DNA from: Hydrogenophilales bacterium 16-64-40 | Lineage (GTDB): Bacteria; Pseudomonadota; Gammaproteobacteria; Burkholderiales; Thiobacillaceae | Length of the DNA stretch: 64,000 bases | Assembly: GCA_002256995.1 (NCBI GenBank) | Contig: NCGX01000019.1 | Span: 1 to 64,000, forward strand | Reading direction: 5' to 3' | Part shown: positions 37,322 to 44,693 of the stretch, one piece after another | Position numbering within the stretch: position 1 is the first letter of the stretch | Layout of the letters: each line of letters opens with the position of its first letter | Notes under the pieces: model-generated | The model's database searches: none | What the model was told of the DNA's origin: nothing | What the model saw: the letters and a program-made list of their open reading frames with translations, nothing else | Translations under genes and position numbers: made by a program

Positions 37322-39538
37322 CTATTTGGTGGTGTAGACGTACACGCCGTCCCAGTCTGCGGGCGGCGGCACTTCGCGGAAATGCGCGATGCGCGCAAGG
37401 TAGATATCGTACAGCGTACGCGGGCGGCGGACGTTGAGCGCGCGCAAGGCGGCTTCGGCAGCGTCCCAGTCCTGCGCCTGATAGCGTGCAAACGCGGCTT
37501 CGAAGTCGGCCGCGTCCTGGCGCACCGCATCGGCGAGGCCGTCCTTCTGCCCCAGCGGTTCGTAGATCGACACCGGGGTTTCCTTGCCCTTGACGCGCAC
37601 GTCGTCGACTTTCATGAAGGCGTGAACGGGATCGGCCTCGACCGTGGTCTGCGTAACCAGGATGCCGACGCCGTACTGCTTGGTAATGCCTTCGAGGCGC
37701 GAGCCGAGGTTCACCGCGTCGCCCATCACGGTGTAGGCCATGCGGAACTCGGAGCCCATGTTGCCGACGCTCATGCGCCCGGTGTTGACGCCCACGCCGA
37801 TCTTCACGTCGGGCCAGCCGCGCGCCGCGAACTCCTGATTCAGCTTCGCGAGCGCCGCCTGCATGTCGAGCGCGGTCTGCACCGCGCGGGTGGCGTGGTC
37901 GGCGAGGTCCACCGGCGCGTTCCAGAACGCCATGATGGCGTCGCCGATGTACTTGTCGATGGTGCCGCGATGCTGCTGCACGATGCGCGTCATGGTCGAC
38001 AAATAGGCGTTCAGCACTGCGGCGAGTTCGGCCGGCGGCAGCTGCTCGGAAAAATTGGTGAAGCCGCGGATGTCGGAGAACAGCACGCTCATGTCGCGCG
38101 ACTGCCCTTCCATCGTGTAATGCGCCGGATTCTGGCTCATTTCGGCGGCCAGTTCAGGCGGCACGTACTGGCCGAACAGCTTGGTGATCTGGCGCTTGCT
38201 GCGGGTCGCGGCAAAAAAGCCGTAGGCGGTGTTGAGCGCATACAGGCCAAGCACCGTCAGCATCGGCGCCGCCATCGGCACCACCATGAAGCGCGACCAG
38301 GCTGCACCGTAGGCGGCCAGCAGCAAGGCCAGCATCACCATGCTGGCCGCCAGGCCGATGGTCGGCCCGAAACGCAGCAGCACCGCCGTCAGCAAAGCGC
38401 CCAGCAGCAGCACGGCGGCCAGCCGCGCGTCATCCGCCCACGGCGGCGTGGCGCGGATGGTGCCGTCGAGGATGCCGGCGATCAGGTGGGCATGGATCTC
38501 GACGCCCGGAAAGGCGTTGGAAAACGGCGTCACCCGCAGGTCGGCCAGACCCGGTGCGGTCGACCCCAACAGCACGATGCGGTTTTCCAGCTGCGCCAAA
38601 GGTGCCTTGCCTGCCAGCACGTCGGCCGCCGACAGGTAGGGAAACGGCGCGCCAGCGCGGTACGGCACATGCACCCGGCCGTCCACGCTCAAGGGCATGC
38701 GAATGCCGCCCACTTCCAGCCACGGCGACAGATACTGCCGGCCGAGCACCGACTGCCGGTCAACGCCGGCAAGCGCCGGATCGCCACCGAACGCGACCTG
38801 CAAGGTGGAAGCCGACAACGCCAGGTAGTAGCCTGCGCCATACCGGCTGACCAGACTCATCTGGCGCGCCGTGCCATCCTCGTCGGCGCGCATATTGAAA
38901 AAGCCCGCGCCCTGCGCCGCCTGCTGGAACGCGGCTAGATTCGCGCCATAGCCGGTGGGCGGCGGCGTACCCGGCTGCAACGGATCAAACGCGGCGGCCG
39001 GCAAGGACGGTTGCGGCAACAGGCCGGTTTTGGCATCACCGTAGCCTTGCGGAATGAAGTAGTAGCCCAGGGACAGCGGACGTTCGGCAAGCACCTGCGC
39101 AAAGCGGGCGTCGTAGTCGAGTCGCGGCGCCAGCTTTTCGAGTGCCGCCCTGAAATCGCGGCTGCCCGCCAGATCGCGGTACGCCAGCTGCTTGAGGGTA
39201 TCGAGGCCCGAACTCGTGTCCGGTTCGGCAAACACCACGTCGAAGCCGACCGCGGCCACGCCATAGTGGTCGAACAACTGCTCGACCAGCGCGGTTAGGG
39301 TGTCGCGGCTCCACGGCCAGCGGCCGAGGCTTTTCAGGCTGGCCTCGTCGATGTCGAGGATGGCCACGCGATCATCCAGGCCGGCCGGCGCAGTACGGAT
39401 CAGCCAGGCGTCATACAGCCAGGCTTCGGCGCGCTGGATCGGGGCGATGTGGAGCAGTCCCGCAACGTGCGCCGCGATCAGCAAAACAAGCAGCGCAGAC
39501 AGCCCTGCCTGCGCCAGCCTGGACAGGACGCGCTTCAC
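37322..39538 (-). CDS. CHASE2-domain class III adenylate/guanylate cyclase
   Basis: Membrane sensor cyclase, 738 residues. A signal/anchor helix (8-28) precedes the extracytoplasmic CHASE2 domain (about 30-335: VAILDIDEASLKSLGRWPW, FDVVFAEPD). Three membrane helices follow (about 370-435), then the class III cyclase domain with both metal Asp residues (LFSDIRGFTNFSE and DKYIGDAIMAFW), VNTGRMSVGNMGS and TVMGDAVNLGSR. A short TPR-like tail follows (ADFEAAFARYQAQDWDAAEAAL). Product is most likely cAMP by motif pattern. Its ATG overlaps the M48 stop codon. Confidence 0.93.
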   Translation of the reverse strand: MKRVLSRLAQAGLSALLVLLIAAHVAGLLHIAPIQRAEAWLYDAWLIRTAPAGLDDRVAILDIDEASLKSLGRWPWSRDTLTALVEQLFDHYGVAAVGFDVVFAEPDTSSGLDTLKQLAYRDLAGSRDFRAALEKLAPRLDYDARFAQVLAERPLSLGYYFIPQGYGDAKTGLLPQPSLPAAAFDPLQPGTPPPTGYGANLAAFQQAAQGAGFFNMRADEDGTARQMSLVSRYGAGYYLALSASTLQVAFGGDPALAGVDRQSVLGRQYLSPWLEVGGIRMPLSVDGRVHVPYRAGAPFPYLSAADVLAGKAPLAQLENRIVLLGSTAPGLADLRVTPFSNAFPGVEIHAHLIAGILDGTIRATPPWADDARLAAVLLLGALLTAVLLRFGPTIGLAASMVMLALLLAAYGAAWSRFMVVPMAAPMLTVLGLYALNTAYGFFAATRSKRQITKLFGQYVPPELAAEMSQNPAHYTMEGQSRDMSVLFSDIRGFTNFSEQLPPAELAAVLNAYLSTMTRIVQQHRGTIDKYIGDAIMAFWNAPVDLADHATRAVQTALDMQAALAKLNQEFAARGWPDVKIGVGVNTGRMSVGNMGSEFRMAYTVMGDAVNLGSRLEGITKQYGVGILVTQTTVEADPVHAFMKVDDVRVKGKETPVSIYEPLGQKDGLADAVRQDAADFEAAFARYQAQDWDAAEAALRALNVRRPRTLYDIYLARIAHFREVPPPADWDGVYVYTTK

Positions 39539-40449
39539 CGAATGCGGTAGAAACGGTCGGCCAATTCCTTGCCGCGAACGGCATCGAGACGTCCATCCAC
39601 CGCCTCGCCCAGCGCCGCGAGGCGATCGGCCGGATGCGGGTGGGTTTTATAGAGCAGGCTGGTGCGGTTGTCCCCTGCAGGCAAGGCCGCCATGTCCTGC
39701 AACACGCTGGGCAGTCCCCAGGGGTCGTAGCCGGCGCGCGCGGCATACACCATGCCGACGCGATCCGCCTCGTGTTCTGCGTTCTTGTCGAGCCCGCGCG
39801 CCATGATTTCAGCGCCGTTGCCGATCAGGTTCTGCACCACCTGGTCGCTGCCTTTTGCCTTGCTGCTGGCGGCCTGCCCCAGCGCCCCGATCAGGCTGGA
39901 TTGCTTGAGCACCTTGAGGTGATGCTTCTGCGTGACGTGGGCGATCTCATGTCCCAGCACGCCGGCCAGCTCGGCCTCGGTGTTGAGCAGTCGGTACAGG
40001 CCCTTGGTCACGAAGATGTAGCCCCCTGGCGCGGCAAAGGCGTTGATGGCCTCGGTGTCGAGCACGCCGAAATGCCAGGTGACCTCCTGGCGCCCGCTCT
40101 GCAGCGCCACCCAGTTGCCGACCAGGTTGACGTAGTTCTGCAGCTTGTTGTCGCGCACCAGCGGCACCGCGCCCAGCAGGTTGCCGGAAATCTGTCGGCC
40201 GATGCGGTTTTCCTCTTCCAGCGAGTAACCGGTCAACAGCGTCTGCCCCAACTGCCGCAAATCGACTTTCTGCTTGCTCTGCGGCGGCGTGGCAGCATCG
40301 GGCGCGGCTTCGGGAGCCGGCTGCGTCTGCTTATCTTTGTTCAGTTCCTCCTTGATGCGGTCTTCCAGCATCTTGCCGAAGTCGATTGCGACGGCCGCGC
40401 CGCTGAGCGACGCGAGCGCGACGGCCATTAGTGTCAGTTTGATCTTCAT
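39535..40449 (-). CDS. exported M48-family zinc metalloprotease
   Basis: A 304-residue protein with a signal peptide (MKIKLTLMAVALASLSGAAVA). The peptidase domain has LGHEIAHVTQKHH (zinc HExxH, near residue 160) and the third ligand in NAEHEADRVGM. A Pro/Ala linker (TQPAPEAAPDAATPP) sits between signal and domain. Likely a periplasmic quality-control protease like BepA/LoiP; the exact substrate is unknown. ATG at 40449 follows GGGAGAG; it overlaps the stop of the upstream SH3 gene by one base and its own stop overlaps the cyclase start. Confidence 0.9.
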   Translation of the reverse strand: MKIKLTLMAVALASLSGAAVAIDFGKMLEDRIKEELNKDKQTQPAPEAAPDAATPPQSKQKVDLRQLGQTLLTGYSLEEENRIGRQISGNLLGAVPLVRDNKLQNYVNLVGNWVALQSGRQEVTWHFGVLDTEAINAFAAPGGYIFVTKGLYRLLNTEAELAGVLGHEIAHVTQKHHLKVLKQSSLIGALGQAASSKAKGSDQVVQNLIGNGAEIMARGLDKNAEHEADRVGMVYAARAGYDPWGLPSVLQDMAALPAGDNRTSLLYKTHPHPADRLAALGEAVDGRLDAVRGKELADRFYRIR

Positions 40450-41204
40450 CAGTTGCTCTCCCATGTCGACGATTGCTGTGCCTGCGGTTTCGGCAGGTCG
40501 GGTACGCTGACCGCCGCGAGCCGCGCCTGGCCGGCGAAGGTCCTCGCCTGCGTCGCGCTCACGCGCAGCGCGTCCAGGCGCGCGAGTTCCTCGGCGTTGA
40601 ATTTAGCCTCCTTGAGGTCCTCGTCGTTAAGACCGCGCAGACCTGCGACGGCGACGACTCGAGTGGGGTCTGACCGCGTCGTCGCCGCGCCGACGACGTC
40701 GCCCACGCCCGCGCCGCCGAGGCCGCCCGACCCTGCGCGCACCGAGAGCAGCCGGATCCAGCCGCTTTGGCTGCCCGCCTTCACGCGCAGCCAGCCCGCT
40801 TGCTTGCCGAGGATTTCGACGCGCGCGCCCTTGGCGACGCTCGCCGTAACCTTCGACGTGGAAGCCGGTTCGCGATAGAGTTTTTCCGCGCGCAGGACCG
40901 TGCCTGGGGCAGACGATACCGCGGCGGGCGGCGCCGCCGGAGGCGCCGCGGCCGCCGGCCCGGGCGCGGCCTCAGAGGGCGCTTTAGCGACGGCAGAAGG
41001 CGTCACGATAGTGGTCTGCGCTGCGTCCGCAGCGGGTTCGCTTGCGGGCGCCGCAGGCGCTTCCGCGACGGCGGGCGGCGTAGCGCTGTCGACGCGCGGC
41101 GCCGCCGGTTCGCTCACGGGCGCGCCGGCCTCTTCGCTGCGATCGCCGCACGCGCCGAGCACTGCGGCGAACGACACGATGAGCACCATCGCTTCGGGTT
41201 TCAT
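40449..41204 (-). CDS. SH3-domain lipoprotein (tandem paralog, extended)
   Basis: A 251-residue paralog of the gene at 41248-41778. The N-terminus MKPEAMVLIVSFAAVLGACG carries a lipobox (LGAC), so it is probably a lipoprotein. A long Ala/Pro-rich spacer (about residues 25-105) is followed by a bacterial SH3 domain with VLRAEKLYREPASTSKVTAS and GWLRVKAGSQSGWIRLLSVR, then a Gly-rich stretch and a helical tail with NDEDLKEAKFNAEELARLDAL. The C-terminal part is nearly the same as its neighbour. It may tether to peptidoglycan. The start at 41204 follows from the lipobox. Confidence 0.8.
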   Translation of the reverse strand: MKPEAMVLIVSFAAVLGACGDRSEEAGAPVSEPAAPRVDSATPPAVAEAPAAPASEPAADAAQTTIVTPSAVAKAPSEAAPGPAAAAPPAAPPAAVSSAPGTVLRAEKLYREPASTSKVTASVAKGARVEILGKQAGWLRVKAGSQSGWIRLLSVRAGSGGLGGAGVGDVVGAATTRSDPTRVVAVAGLRGLNDEDLKEAKFNAEELARLDALRVSATQARTFAGQARLAAVSVPDLPKPQAQQSSTWESN

Positions 41205-41247
41205 GGCATCCACCGCTTGGCCGTCAGCACCATCAGTCTGGTCTTCA

Positions 41248-41778
41248 TCAGTTGTTCCCCCACGGCGAAGAGGACTGCTCGGGCTGGGGCTTGGGCAATT
41301 CCGCCACCTTGACCGCGACCAGGCCGGACTGGCGGGCAAAGCTTCTGGCCTGCGCCGTCGTCACGCCCAGGGCTTCCATGCGCGCCAACTCGTCGGCATT
41401 GAACTGGGCACGCTTCAGATCTTCGTCATTCAGGCCGCGCAGACCGGCCACCGCAACCACGCGAGTGGGGTCGGACCGCGTGGTCGCGGCCCCCACCACA
41501 TCGCCCACCCCGGCTCCCCCCAGTCCGCCCGCCCCCGCACGCACCGAGAGCAGCCGGATCCAGCCGGTGGAATTACCGGCCTTCACGCGCAGCCAACCAC
41601 CCTGCTTGGCGAGGATGTCAACGCGGGCGCCCTTGGGCACGTTGGCCGCCACGCGGGCGCTTGCACTGGGCTGGCTATAGAGTTTTTCATTGCGCAAGAC
41701 CGTGCCGGGCGCGGCCCAGGCAGTCGCCGACGCGACGCACAGCACCAGCGCGGCCGCCGGGATCAGTGTTGTTTTCAT
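41248..41778 (-). CDS. periplasmic SH3-domain protein (tandem paralog)
   Basis: A 176-residue secreted protein with signal peptide (MKTTLIPAAALVLCVASATA). The SH3 domain (about 25-90) reads VLRNEKLYSQPSASARVAAN and GWLRVKAGNSTGWIRLLSVR; a Gly-rich segment GAGGLGGAGVGDVVGAATTR and a conserved helical tail follow. It lacks the lipobox and the Ala/Pro spacer of its downstream paralog. Start ATG at 41778 follows GGAGAAG. It is the first gene of the minus-strand run that continues to the phosphodiesterase. Confidence 0.82.
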   Translation of the reverse strand: MKTTLIPAAALVLCVASATAWAAPGTVLRNEKLYSQPSASARVAANVPKGARVDILAKQGGWLRVKAGNSTGWIRLLSVRAGAGGLGGAGVGDVVGAATTRSDPTRVVAVAGLRGLNDEDLKRAQFNADELARMEALGVTTAQARSFARQSGLVAVKVAELPKPQPEQSSSPWGNN

Positions 41779-41843
41779 CGTAGGTCTTCTCCATTTGAAG
41801 CGGAACTGCATGAACTGCCATTCTATGGCGTTAAGATGCCGCA

Positions 41844-42638
41844 ATGAACTTTCTTGCGGCCTCCATCGAATCGCTCGGCGCCAAGGTCGTCGGCTGGTTT
41901 ACCGTTGGTTACGCGATGTTTGCGTTTCTGGCCAAGGCCAGCTTGCTGCTGCTGGACCGCACCACCTGGAACCGCGCCACGTTCGACGTGGTGGTGAAGC
42001 AGGTTTACTTTACGGCTGTGCAGATTCTGCCTGTTTTCCTCGGCTATGCACTGGTCATTTCGTGGCTCATCATCACCATCATCCTGTCCACCGCACGCGA
42101 TTTCGGCCTCACCGCATTCGCCAGCGAAATGACCATTCGCGTGCTGGTGCTCGAGCTGCTGCCTTTTCTGACTGCGCTCTTTGTCGCCTTGCGTTCCGGC
42201 AGCGCAATCAACACCGAAGTCGCCCTGATGCAGGTCAACAACGAATTGGATGCACTGGCGCACTGTAAGGTTCCGCCGATGCAGTTCGAGTTTCTGCCGC
42301 GGCTGATCGGCGGGGTGGTCTCGGTCGTCATCCTCGCCGGCCTGGCCGGCCTGCTCGCCCTGTTGTTGGGCTACCTCTCGATTTACGGCGTGAGCACGGC
42401 GGGCTTCGAGCCGTACACCCAGACCATCGCAAAAATATTCGATTTCAAGATCATGGCCGGGCTGATCGTCAAGTGCGCGCTGTTCGGGCTGGCGGTCACC
42501 CTGATCCCGGTCACCGCCGGGCTCGAAACGCCAAAAAAACTCTTCATGGTTCCGGTCTCCGTGCTGCGCGGCATGATGCGGGTGTTCTTCGCCATTGTGA
42601 CGATCGAGGTGGTGTCATTAGCGCTCAAATACATCTGA
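41844..42638 (+). CDS. MlaE-like ABC lipid-transport permease
   Basis: A 264-residue inner-membrane protein with about six helices, matching MlaE/YrbE-family permeases: LELLPFLTALFVALRSGSAI and VNNELDALAHCKVPP align with the conserved region that precedes the coupling helix, though usual residues such as the GxVGA motif have changed. Expected to move phospholipids or other lipids with MlaD. It is the first gene of the operon; the next frame begins inside it. Confidence 0.86.
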   Translation: MNFLAASIESLGAKVVGWFTVGYAMFAFLAKASLLLLDRTTWNRATFDVVVKQVYFTAVQILPVFLGYALVISWLIITIILSTARDFGLTAFASEMTIRVLVLELLPFLTALFVALRSGSAINTEVALMQVNNELDALAHCKVPPMQFEFLPRLIGGVVSVVILAGLAGLLALLLGYLSIYGVSTAGFEPYTQTIAKIFDFKIMAGLIVKCALFGLAVTLIPVTAGLETPKKLFMVPVSVLRGMMRVFFAIVTIEVVSLALKYI

Positions 42639-43087
42639 CCCCGTTTGCCGACCGCGCCGCGCTGCTGGTTGCGGTTGACGCCCTGCCTGAAGACGTGGCG
42701 CGCGTTGCACTCGATCTGCCGCTGCGGGCGAACCTGTCGGCGCTCGAAAACATTGCGCTGATTCCGCTCTACCAGCGCCATTACGACGCGGCCGAATCGA
42801 CCCGGCAGGCGCAGGCCATGCTGGACCAACTGGACCACGCCGGGATTGCGTTGCTGCGCGACCCTGACATGACGCCGGCCCAGCGCTTCGTCACCAAGCT
42901 TGCGCGCGCGCTCATCCTCAAGCGCCCGCGCCTGGTGATCGACCGTCCCGGCGCCATGCTTTACGATGTGCCGTATCCCGCCTTCATCGGGAAACTGGCG
43001 GCGCGGGCAGACATGACAGGCACCTGGGAAATTTACGACTTCAACTGGAACCAGGTTCTCTATAACCAGGCACTTGATTCGGAATGA
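42617..43087 (+). CDS. degenerate MlaF-like ATPase homolog lacking Walker A
   Basis: About 156 residues, placed where MlaF (the ATPase) should be. It aligns only with the C-terminal two thirds of an ABC ATPase: NLSALENIALIPLYQRH is like the Q-loop part, MTPAQRFVTKLARALILKRP replaces LSGG-ARALAL, and LVIDRPG replaces Walker B with Arg in place of the catalytic Glu. There is no Walker A sequence, so ATP hydrolysis is not expected. No ATG, GTG or TTG fits the family-like start; an ATT at 42617 or a GTG at 42473 (inside the permease gene) is possible. Its end overlaps mlaD by 4 bases. Confidence 0.7.
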   Translation: MSAQIHLTPFADRAALLVAVDALPEDVARVALDLPLRANLSALENIALIPLYQRHYDAAESTRQAQAMLDQLDHAGIALLRDPDMTPAQRFVTKLARALILKRPRLVIDRPGAMLYDVPYPAFIGKLAARADMTGTWEIYDFNWNQVLYNQALDSE

Positions 43088-44031
43088 ACAAACTACATTT
43101 CAAGGTCGGCTTGTTTGCCGCCGCCTCGCTGCTGCTGGCGGGCGCATTCGTGGTGTATCTGCTGCATGCGCGTGGCTTTTTTGAAGAGACCTTCCACCTG
43201 CAACTCGCCGCATCCAGCGCCGATGGCGTCGCGCCCGGGGTACCGGTGGTGTTTTCCGGCATCGAAATCGGCCGCGTCACCACGCTGGGGCTGAACGAAG
43301 AAGGCGGCATCATCATCCACGCCACCTTCTTCAAGCGCAATGCAAAATGGCTGAAGGAGAACAGCACCTTCACCCTCGACAAACCCATCGTCGGCGGCGC
43401 CAAGATCCGCGTCGACTCGCCCGACCTCGACGCCCCCGCGCTGCCCGACGACGCCACCGTGCTGCTGCTCACCTCCGACATCAGCAAGGAGCTTCCGGCA
43501 CTGGTCGAACGGGTCAAGGCAGTTCTCGACAACGTCGAGCACCTCACCCGCAAGGACGGCGAGATCACGGCCACCCTGGCCAACCTGCAGACGGTGACCG
43601 GACGCATGACCGGCGAATACGGCATGCTGGAAGGCATCCTCGGCAGTCCGGAAAAGGCCCGCGCGGTGACCGACTCGCTCGACGGCATTCGCGCCCTCGT
43701 CGGCAGGCTCGACAGCCTGGCGCTTAAAGTGGACGGCATGGCCGTCAAAACCGACCAATGGCTGTTTGCGCCGGCGGGCGTGGCCGAGCAGACGCACGAG
43801 GCGCTGGCCCAGATACGACTGATGCTGAATGACGCGCAATCCAGCCTGGAAAAGGCCGATGCCATGATGACCAACGCGGTGGCGATTTCCGCCGACGTCA
43901 AGGAAGGCACGCAAGACATCGCCACGCTGCGCGCCGAAGTCGACGATGCGGTGAGCAAGGCCAATGCGCTGGTCAACAAGATCAACAAGATGTGGCCGTT
44001 TGCGAGCGAGCCCGAGGTGAAGCTGCCATGA
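43084..44031 (+). CDS. MlaD-like MCE-domain lipid-binding protein
   Basis: Inner-membrane-anchored lipid carrier, 315 residues. One membrane helix (residues 9-28, FAAASLLLAGAFVVYLLHA) is followed by an MCE domain: GVAPGVPVVFSGIEIGRVT (near residue 47) and LDKPIVGGAKIRVDSPD. The long C-terminal part (residues 140-300) is helical coiled coil, which in this family forms a tunnel or oligomer contact. It overlaps the degenerate ATPase homolog before it and the lipoprotein after it by 4 bases each. Confidence 0.9.
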   Translation: MNKLHFKVGLFAAASLLLAGAFVVYLLHARGFFEETFHLQLAASSADGVAPGVPVVFSGIEIGRVTTLGLNEEGGIIIHATFFKRNAKWLKENSTFTLDKPIVGGAKIRVDSPDLDAPALPDDATVLLLTSDISKELPALVERVKAVLDNVEHLTRKDGEITATLANLQTVTGRMTGEYGMLEGILGSPEKARAVTDSLDGIRALVGRLDSLALKVDGMAVKTDQWLFAPAGVAEQTHEALAQIRLMLNDAQSSLEKADAMMTNAVAISADVKEGTQDIATLRAEVDDAVSKANALVNKINKMWPFASEPEVKLP

Positions 44032-44693
44032 AGCCCCTGCTCGCCCTCGCCTGCCTGCTTGCGCTTACGGCCTGCAGCAGCGGCCCGCCGCCGCCCGACT
44101 GGAAAACCGATGCGGCCGATCTGATCGAGCGTTACCAGAAACATGCCCTGCAGGGCGAAAACGTGCTCGCCGAGCGCTACTTCCAGCGGGCTGTCGGCGC
44201 CACTGGCGGCGCCGGCCGCGTCACCGAGACCGCGCGCCTGTGGCTGGTGCGCTGCGCCACCCGCCGCGCCATGCTGATCGACGATGCCTGCGCCGAGTAC
44301 GCCGAACTCGCCGCCATCGCACCGAGCGCGGCGGACCATGCCTACTATCAGTTCCTTACCCTGCGCTGGGACGCGTTCGATGTCGCCCTGTTGCCCAGCC
44401 AGCACCGCGATCTGGTGCGCGCAGCGGCTGACAAGCGCCCTGAAACTTTGAACAGGATCGCCGACCCGCTGGCGCGCCTGCTCGACGCCAGCCTGCTGGT
44501 GATGCGCCAGGAAGCCGATGCTGCCACGCTGGCGCTGGCCGCGGAAACCGCCTCGGAACGGGGCTGGCGCCAGCCGCTGCTGACCTACCTGAAACTGCAG
44601 CACGCACAGGCTACGACCCGGGGCGATGTCGCCGAAATAAGCCGCCTGACCGGGCGTATCCGGCTGGTCGAGAAGAGTCTGCTGCCGCATTGA
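44028..44693 (+). CDS. Mla-operon lipoprotein
   Basis: A 221-residue protein starting MKPLLALACLLALTACSSGP, a lipoprotein signal with lipobox LTAC. The mature part is Ala/Arg-rich and helical, with no recognised domain. It is the last gene of the operon and probably reaches the outer membrane, in the place of MlaA- or auxiliary-type partners, but no such similarity is visible. ATG overlaps the mlaD stop (ATGA). Confidence 0.78.
   Translation: MKPLLALACLLALTACSSGPPPPDWKTDAADLIERYQKHALQGENVLAERYFQRAVGATGGAGRVTETARLWLVRCATRRAMLIDDACAEYAELAAIAPSAADHAYYQFLTLRWDAFDVALLPSQHRDLVRAAADKRPETLNRIADPLARLLDASLLVMRQEADAATLALAAETASERGWRQPLLTYLKLQHAQATTRGDVAEISRLTGRIRLVEKSLLPH

Follow-up and report, generated by a model that had tools for sequence, protein, structure and literature searches.

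A conserved, putatively ATPase-dead relative of ABC NBDs in an Mla-type lipid transport operon of Thiobacillus and related bacteria

An Mla-type operon in a Thiobacillaceae genome of 3.1 Mb carries, in the position of its ATPase gene, a conserved gene for a 156-residue protein, the mini-NBD, whose best reading is a catalytically dead, ABC-derived pseudo-NBD from which the motifs for ATP hydrolysis are absent. We hold it to be slightly better than an even bet that the locus encodes a variant of the Mla/Mpc-type lipid transporters, in which this protein would hold the cytoplasmic face of the permease and lipid flux would take place without ATP hydrolysis by the complex itself. The results suggest that many sulfur-oxidising bacteria and some of their relatives possess a lipid-transport set with a conserved stand-in for the motor, a transporter perhaps without a motor of its own. 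Both the ATP dependence of MCE-type transporters and the direction in which they move lipids are still debated. Here, evolution has seemingly removed the motor and kept the rest, including a dedicated stand-in, which would make the question directly testable in harmless bacteria and, if true, would add a further case of an ABC permease turned to a non-ABC mode.

The locus and the protein in the ATPase position

The window, i.e. the whole stretch of 64,000 nucleotides that was analyzed, is part of one contig of this genome (C31). On its + strand, four consecutive genes of the same orientation encode an MlaE-type permease, the mini-NBD, an MCE (MlaD-like) protein and a putative lipoprotein. Their reading frames overlap by 22, 4 and 4 nt, the last two junctions being ATGA. 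The features are as follows:

41844..42638, + strand: MlaE-type permease of a divergent branch, with a putatively altered coupling helix; 264 aa; PF02405, E 9.1e-41
42606..42612, + strand: Shine-Dalgarno-like GAGGTGG for the mini-NBD gene, within permease codons 255-257
42617..42619, + strand: ATT, start codon of the mini-NBD gene; ATT in 51/51 distinct Thiobacillus loci
42617..43087, + strand: pseudo-NBD (mini-NBD), ABC-derived; 156 aa; without Walker A, signature, catalytic Glu or H-loop His
43084..44031, + strand: MCE (MlaD-like) protein; 315 aa; one MCE domain and a long C-terminal part; PF02470, E 1.4e-7
44028..44693, + strand: putative lipoprotein with an LTAC lipobox (by eye); 221 aa; predicted to be all-helical

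A preliminary description of this DNA had placed a protein of about 156 residues in the ATPase slot of an Mla-type operon. The open frame at 42617-43087 is exactly of this length, and matches to PF02405 (permease) and PF02470 (MCE protein) flank it on either side. The MCE protein scored 32 bits against a cut-off of 25.1 for PF02470, and an MCE homologue was present at every locus examined in other genera; by analogy, it would form a hexameric ring or needle. The lipoprotein reading frame had no Pfam match over the cut-off and no match to ABC_trans_aux up to E 10, i.e. it is not PqiC-like. Its AlphaFold2 model was all-alpha (pLDDT 90.6) and found no PDB match at E<=1e-3 with Foldseek, and the protein belongs to no known family. 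Neither an MlaB-like gene nor an MlaF gene was found in the window operon. On the opposite strand, immediately upstream (40449-41844), are two tandem genes for SH3-domain proteins that are 73% identical over 152 residues, and an M48 peptidase gene (39535-40464) adjoins this pair; by eye, similar genes flank the corresponding permease of another carrier genome, G376.

The motifs expected of an active ABC ATPase were sought in two alignments of the mini-NBD family (A1 and A5), which comprise 65 rows, 4 of them common to both, and thus 61 distinct sequences. Neither the Walker A motif GxxxxGK[ST] nor the SGG signature occurred in any of the 65 rows, and in the window protein the position of LSGG reads TPAQ. 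Its Walker B motif is VIDRP, with arginine at the position of the catalytic glutamate; across the rows this site reads DR(P) in 58, ER in 3, DH in 2 and both EH and DR in one, while one row (L165) has no such motif. Since the only histidines of the window protein are at positions 6, 55 and 74, there is no H-loop histidine. All three losses named in the preliminary description, i.e. of Walker A, of LSGG and of the Walker B glutamate, were thus borne out. The upstream frame contained no intact Walker A motif, and no frameshift that hides a normal MlaF was detected. An intact MlaF that has escaped notice and a sequencing frameshift were both rejected, because the same short protein recurs in many genomes. 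The family also has invariant residues of its own; in an alignment of 14 rows these were PLRANLS..N (35-45), A65, L69, A78, RD (81-82), RF (90-91) and A98 in the N-terminal part, and P111, L115, D117, YP (120-121), I139, D141, WN (144-145) and LY (148-149) in the C-terminal part.

The relationship to ABC ATPases emerged from profile and structure comparisons. The mini-NBD alone had no Pfam match even at E 10, and none of 16 family members matched any Pfam family at E<=0.01. As a single sequence it gave weak NCBIfam matches (GlnQ, 2.7e-4; LolD, 4.1e-4), which involve profile positions after Walker A. A profile built from the 14 rows matched 35 distinct ABC ATPase sequences of the PDB at E<=0.01 (best 4.3e-8), and these matches, too, lie past Walker A. 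AlphaFold2, supplied with 49 sequences, predicted a compact mini-NBD with high confidence (pLDDT 92.2, pTM 0.89), and Foldseek returned 267 PDB matches for this model at E<=1e-3. Judged by their titles, the 50 that were listed belong to ABC transporters or ATPases, excepting PH0203, which we take to be an ABC protein as well. An NBD fold and common ancestry with ABC ATPases are indicated by the profile and Foldseek matches together. Descent from MlaF specifically was not supported: the best sequence matches were ArtP/GlnQ and LolD, and MlaF was one among many structural matches (hhalign, 83%, E 8.6e-6).

The model consists of strand 4-10, helix 13-21, strand 27-30 and helices 42-52, 58-71 and 87-99 in its first half, followed by strand 105-109, helices 111-114 and 120-128, strand 136-142 and helix 143-154 in the second. 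In our reading of the model, the first strand and helix take the place of the Walker A strand and helix of an NBD, and the P-loop and the antiparallel beta-subdomain have apparently been excised. With these equivalents kept and the P-loop and beta-subdomain gone, the protein gives the impression of a remodelled mini-NBD, and not of a simple C-terminal fragment. The earlier statement that only the C-terminal ABC part is kept fits the alignments, which cover solely the part after Walker A. The word relic, in the sense of a leftover, did not stand, because the family is conserved, is predicted with confidence to fold compactly, has invariant residues of its own and extends over several families and into a second order.

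Distribution and conservation of the mini-NBD gene

The closest copies came mostly from Thiobacillus records, among them Thiobacillus sp. (L084, 92% identity), T. denitrificans RG (L086) and T. thioparus DSM 505 (L090); some metagenome assemblies with close copies are labelled Rhizobium sp. or Sulfuriferula. Full-length copies were present in 51 of the 55 other members of the genus. The copy of one further member (G003) ends at a contig edge, and no mini-NBD was found in G014, G025 or G004 (weak match only), whose assemblies are 81-90% complete. All four other genera of the family had the gene, as did 2 of 40 other members of the order at E<1e-20, the remaining matches being weak (E 6e-8 or worse). 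A profile search of 399 genomes of the order gave two clean groups, with 32 genomes at 132.6-237.9 bits and the next match at 47.0 bits. Among the matches listed, these 32 carriers span six families and include all 12 sampled members of the window genome's own family.

Beyond the order, the set is rare. At E<=1e-14, the class sample yielded one further genome of 369, G686, which belongs to another order and encodes a permease, a 154-aa mini-NBD, an MCE protein and a homologous lipoprotein (E 1e-19). At the same threshold, 3 of 398 genomes matched in the phylum sample, two of which are from the same family (the window genome and G057) and one of which has an ordinary ATPase. The latter match (G1070, 56.6 bits) was rejected as a mini-NBD, being a complete MacB-like ATPase that includes Walker A. 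Since an ordinary ATPase reached 56.6 bits, the assignment of the G686 protein (58.1 bits) is based on its length of 154 aa and its four-gene context, and not on its score.

The neighboring genes recur together with the mini-NBD gene. Homologues of the permease, MCE protein and lipoprotein flank it at loci L067-L072. An MCE gene was present at 25/25 loci of L140-L164, most of which carry the whole four-gene block; at three (L147, L149 and L154) there was no permease in the stretch examined, and in L140 and L151 the stretch stops short of the lipoprotein gene. The search for the same four-gene set in related genomes, which the preliminary description had called for, thus found it across Thiobacillus, in six families of the order and in one genome of another order. 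One genome (G046) had two mini-NBD copies on separate contigs (C28 and C55), 92% and 74% identical to that of the window, which points either to a second system or to a mixture of strains in the assembly.

Identical proteins and L134, which is cut at a contig end, were dropped from the loci compared. Selection on the gene was estimated pairwise from 51 loci (1275 pairs). For the mini-NBD, 1267 pairs gave a median dN/dS of 0.195 at a median dS of 0.69; for the permease, 1271 pairs gave 0.109 at a median dS of 0.64. These results show that the mini-NBD gene is conserved and under purifying selection, in keeping with the earlier view that it is maintained and not decaying. A decaying ABC ATPase pseudogene would also have lost its catalytic motifs, but the low dN/dS, the family's own invariant motifs, conservation across families and a frame that runs without a stop to about residue 150 in the distinct loci compared (one of which ends at a contig edge) make this explanation hardly credible.

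The ATT start codon and the overlap with the permease gene

The ATT at 42617 lies within the end of the permease gene, 7 nt after GAGG, and no ATG, GTG or TTG start fits the mini-NBD gene at this locus. The seven bases from position -11 were GAGGTGG in 46 of 51 distinct Thiobacillus loci, GAGGTGC in 3, and GAGGTGA and GAGGGAA in one each. Synonymous codon use was analyzed at 49 of the 51 loci, the two with a 265-codon permease being left out. Permease codons 255-257, which contain these bases, were frozen as GAG (49/49), GTG (48/49) and GTG (43/49, 5 not Val). They are followed by TCA at codon 258 (49/49) and TTA at codon 259 (45/49, with TTG in 4), two codons that made up only 25/547 Ser and 6/1975 Leu codons, respectively, in permease codons 1-256. 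The mean synonymous entropy was 0.17 over the last 11 permease codons, compared to 0.68-1.02 in four 60-codon blocks and 0.73 in codons 241-253. The lowest stretch elsewhere was codons 5-13 (0.28-0.30), so low values were not confined to the overlap. The freezing of codons is in part a matter of dual coding, yet the frozen codons 255-257 precede the mini-NBD gene.

An upstream GTG at 42473, which would give a 204-aa reading frame, was considered as the start and rejected. At three loci (L073, L161 and L164) the frame is closed by a stop 3 codons before the ATT, which leaves no ATG, GTG or TTG start to them there. The ATT may have been kept because an NTG start at this position would create a TGA in the permease gene. 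In G376 the overlap is gone and ATT is still present, with AGGAG 8 nt upstream. G257 resembles G376 in this respect, although a GTG that precedes the ATT by three codons is an alternative candidate. The candidate start of G186 is ATG, and those of the other non-overlapping loci are ATG or GTG.

In G376, permease and mini-NBD are separated by an OEP/HlyD/RND efflux operon (contig C2, L209:4677-10528). Both genes stay open there, and a remnant of the permease frame's 3' end persists ahead of the mini-NBD, in the form of a short frame with an ATG; a repeat search at the insertion revealed no clear duplication at its ends. In G257 and G186, permease and mini-NBD are on different contigs. The 22-nt overlap, together with loci that have no ordinary start codon, might bring to mind a programmed frameshift that fuses permease and mini-NBD into one protein. 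We consider this very improbable, since the genes are apart in these three genomes, other genomes have separate ATG or GTG start candidates, the Shine-Dalgarno-like codons upstream of the ATT are frozen, and no X XXY YYZ slippery heptamer was seen in the overlap by eye.

An ATT start codon is known from infC, and the present case, if true, would be a conserved ATT start beyond the few genes known. An ATT start combined with a good Shine-Dalgarno sequence inside the permease gene would probably set the amount of mini-NBD relative to permease. Control of an unusual start codon (GTC) by IF3 is reported for sigR in the accessible text of PMC5472188. A wider proposal, which we put forward tentatively, is that an MlaE-type lineage gave up ATP hydrolysis altogether, its NBD having become a P-loop-less clamp that keeps the permease either open or closed and makes it a passive or otherwise gated lipid conduit, in an amount set by the AUU start inside the permease gene and possibly responsive to the level of IF3.

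The partner permease and the source of energy

The permease is a clear but divergent member of the MlaE family. It scored 140.2 bits against Pfam PF02405 (cut-off 22.5), matched MlaE of 6xbd at E 7.2e-9 and, with 89.8 bits, stayed below the curated cut-off of 212.2 for NCBIfam TIGR00056. All 35 carrier genomes examined (the 32 order genomes plus G056, G059 and G686) had such a distinct MlaE, at 105-141 bits with the Pfam model as compared to 210-261 for ordinary ones, and in 32 of them it adjoins the mini-NBD by coordinates. A tree separates the mini-NBD permeases from ordinary MlaE; only this split was used, as branch supports after re-rooting are unreliable. Thus, the mini-NBD is tied to its own branch of permeases in 35/35 carriers. 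Ordinary MlaE was encoded in addition by 34/35, so an MlaF is usually at hand.

Permeases from 35 of 38 mini-NBD loci (those at L147, L149 and L154, with no adjacent permease, were left out) were compared with 31/31 others, and residues were counted after dropping 4 and 1 duplicate rows, respectively, leaving 31 mini-NBD permeases and 30 ordinary ones. G127 was present in 30/30 ordinary and 0/31 mini-NBD permeases (A in 27), T132 in 30/30 and 2/31, E133 in 29/30 and 0/31 (N in 26), and Q134 in 27/30 and 0/31 (E in all 31, and also in 3/30 ordinary ones). Permease motifs are therefore changed, as the preliminary description had noted. By our placement, positions 127-134 would lie in the coupling helix, and its canonical TEQ motif would be lost. 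In the accessible text of PMC7790496, the coupling helix of MlaE, between TM2 and TM3, mediates the contact with MlaF. R103, placed at Arg97 of MlaE, was found in 29/30 ordinary and 0/31 mini-NBD permeases, while E104, K210 and an acidic residue at 255 were mostly or fully kept in the latter. The loss of the arginine may mean little, because alanine mutants of the Arg97/Glu98/Lys205/Asp250 cluster of MlaE are described there as having no growth effect (PMC7790496). R117, E125 and M129 were invariant among the mini-NBD permeases.

These observations are consistent with a lipid transporter of the envelope that has four components and is of the Mla/Mpc type, in which the ABC ATPase subunit would have been replaced by the pseudo-NBD. 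The mini-NBD would dock on the cytoplasmic face of the permease at the altered coupling helix and, as a structural or gating subunit, would maintain the MlaE dimer in a state competent for transport. Lipids would pass through permease and MCE protein down a gradient or with energy from another source. A mini-NBD that binds the permease as a regulator or assembly factor, outside the transport cycle and in a role like that of MlaB, is in our view decidedly doubtful. It is a small, conserved cytoplasmic protein, its operon has no MlaB-like gene and its permease does not have the ~148-residue N-terminal extension found on a second permease of the same genome (C51), but it occupies the ATPase gene position, has an NBD-type fold and belongs to an operon that keeps no MlaF to regulate.

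The nearest described system is Mpc (mpcEFDA), as presented in the accessible text of PMC12436622. Mpc and the window operon have in common the order permease, ATPase slot, MCE protein and lipoprotein, an MlaE-type permease and a long C-terminal part of the MCE protein. In contrast to the window operon, with its mini-NBD as second gene, short permease and predicted all-helical lipoprotein, Mpc is described there as having a complete ATPase of the MlaF type, a permease with a STAS domain and a lipoprotein like PqiC. MlaFEDB shares the MlaE permease family, an MCE protein and the coupling helix, and differs, in the available portion of PMC7790496, by the presence of the ATPase MlaF and of MlaB, neither of which the window operon encodes. 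PqiABC likewise combines permease, MCE protein and lipoprotein without an ATPase of its own; however, according to the part of PMC10897342 that is available, PqiA is not MlaE-like, there is no NBD remnant, and PqiC has an ABC auxiliary lipoprotein domain. The authors of that study consider a passive function, the PMF or an unidentified ATPase (PMC10897342), and Pqi is the precedent here for a system that has no ATPase of its own. Among the open-licence papers listed by the literature searches, none describes a pseudo-NBD in an MCE operon, judged by titles and the start of abstracts. To our knowledge, the Mce1 and Mce4 operons have no pseudo-NBD.

Mce1 and Mce4 are of interest in another respect, as MCE transporters that, in the accessible text of PMC9947336, have one common active ATPase, MceG, and not one each. 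The window permease might likewise be driven by a borrowed MlaF, the mini-NBD serving as an adaptor or as one half of an asymmetric NBD pair, and the altered coupling-helix residues could then reflect a different ATPase partner. A separate mlaF elsewhere in the genome, as proposed earlier, was indeed found. The genome has three MlaF-grade ATPases: a canonical one with mla genes on contig C10, which served as the search query, an orphan on C40 (376 bits), and an Mpc-like one on C51 (192 bits). The prevalence of ordinary MlaE loci among carriers and the occurrence of the orphan in 11/13 Thiobacillus tested also speak for a loan. However, the orphan is missing from 11/28 carriers tested, so it is not an obligate motor of the mini-NBD system, and as an obligate partner it was rejected by this distribution. 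The coupling helix has lost residues that ordinary permeases keep, and the mini-NBD is devoid of Walker A and signature, which form the sites of NBD dimers. In one carrier (G280), only the special MlaE and MCE were found, with no ordinary MlaE, MlaD or MlaF-grade ATPase; its best MlaF match scored 119.6 bits, compared to 391-415 in four sister genomes. As this is a draft of ~50 contigs and 96% completeness, in which an operon could fall into a gap, it argues against a borrowed MlaF short of excluding it. Taken together, we regard a borrowed motor as unlikely.

The C51 operon (L082:3409-6806) offers an internal comparison in the same genome. It encodes the MlaE permease with the N-terminal extension, a full ATPase (PF00005), an MCE protein and an ABC_trans_aux lipoprotein (PF03886, 1.4e-13). 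A STAS domain on its permease was an impression gained by eye; at E<=1e-5, MlaE is the sole Pfam match of this protein. The orphan MlaF (C40:38458-39264, L212) follows a gene for a 2-oxoacid dehydrogenase acyltransferase, is 65% identical to the canonical MlaF and has relatives at L213-L226, L228 and L231. Walker A, LSGG and DEP are intact in the orphan, and tyrosine replaces the H-loop histidine (VVTYDV) in 14 of 17 copies, the search pattern having missed the other 3; the ordinary MlaF copies caught by the H-loop pattern had histidine in 8/8.
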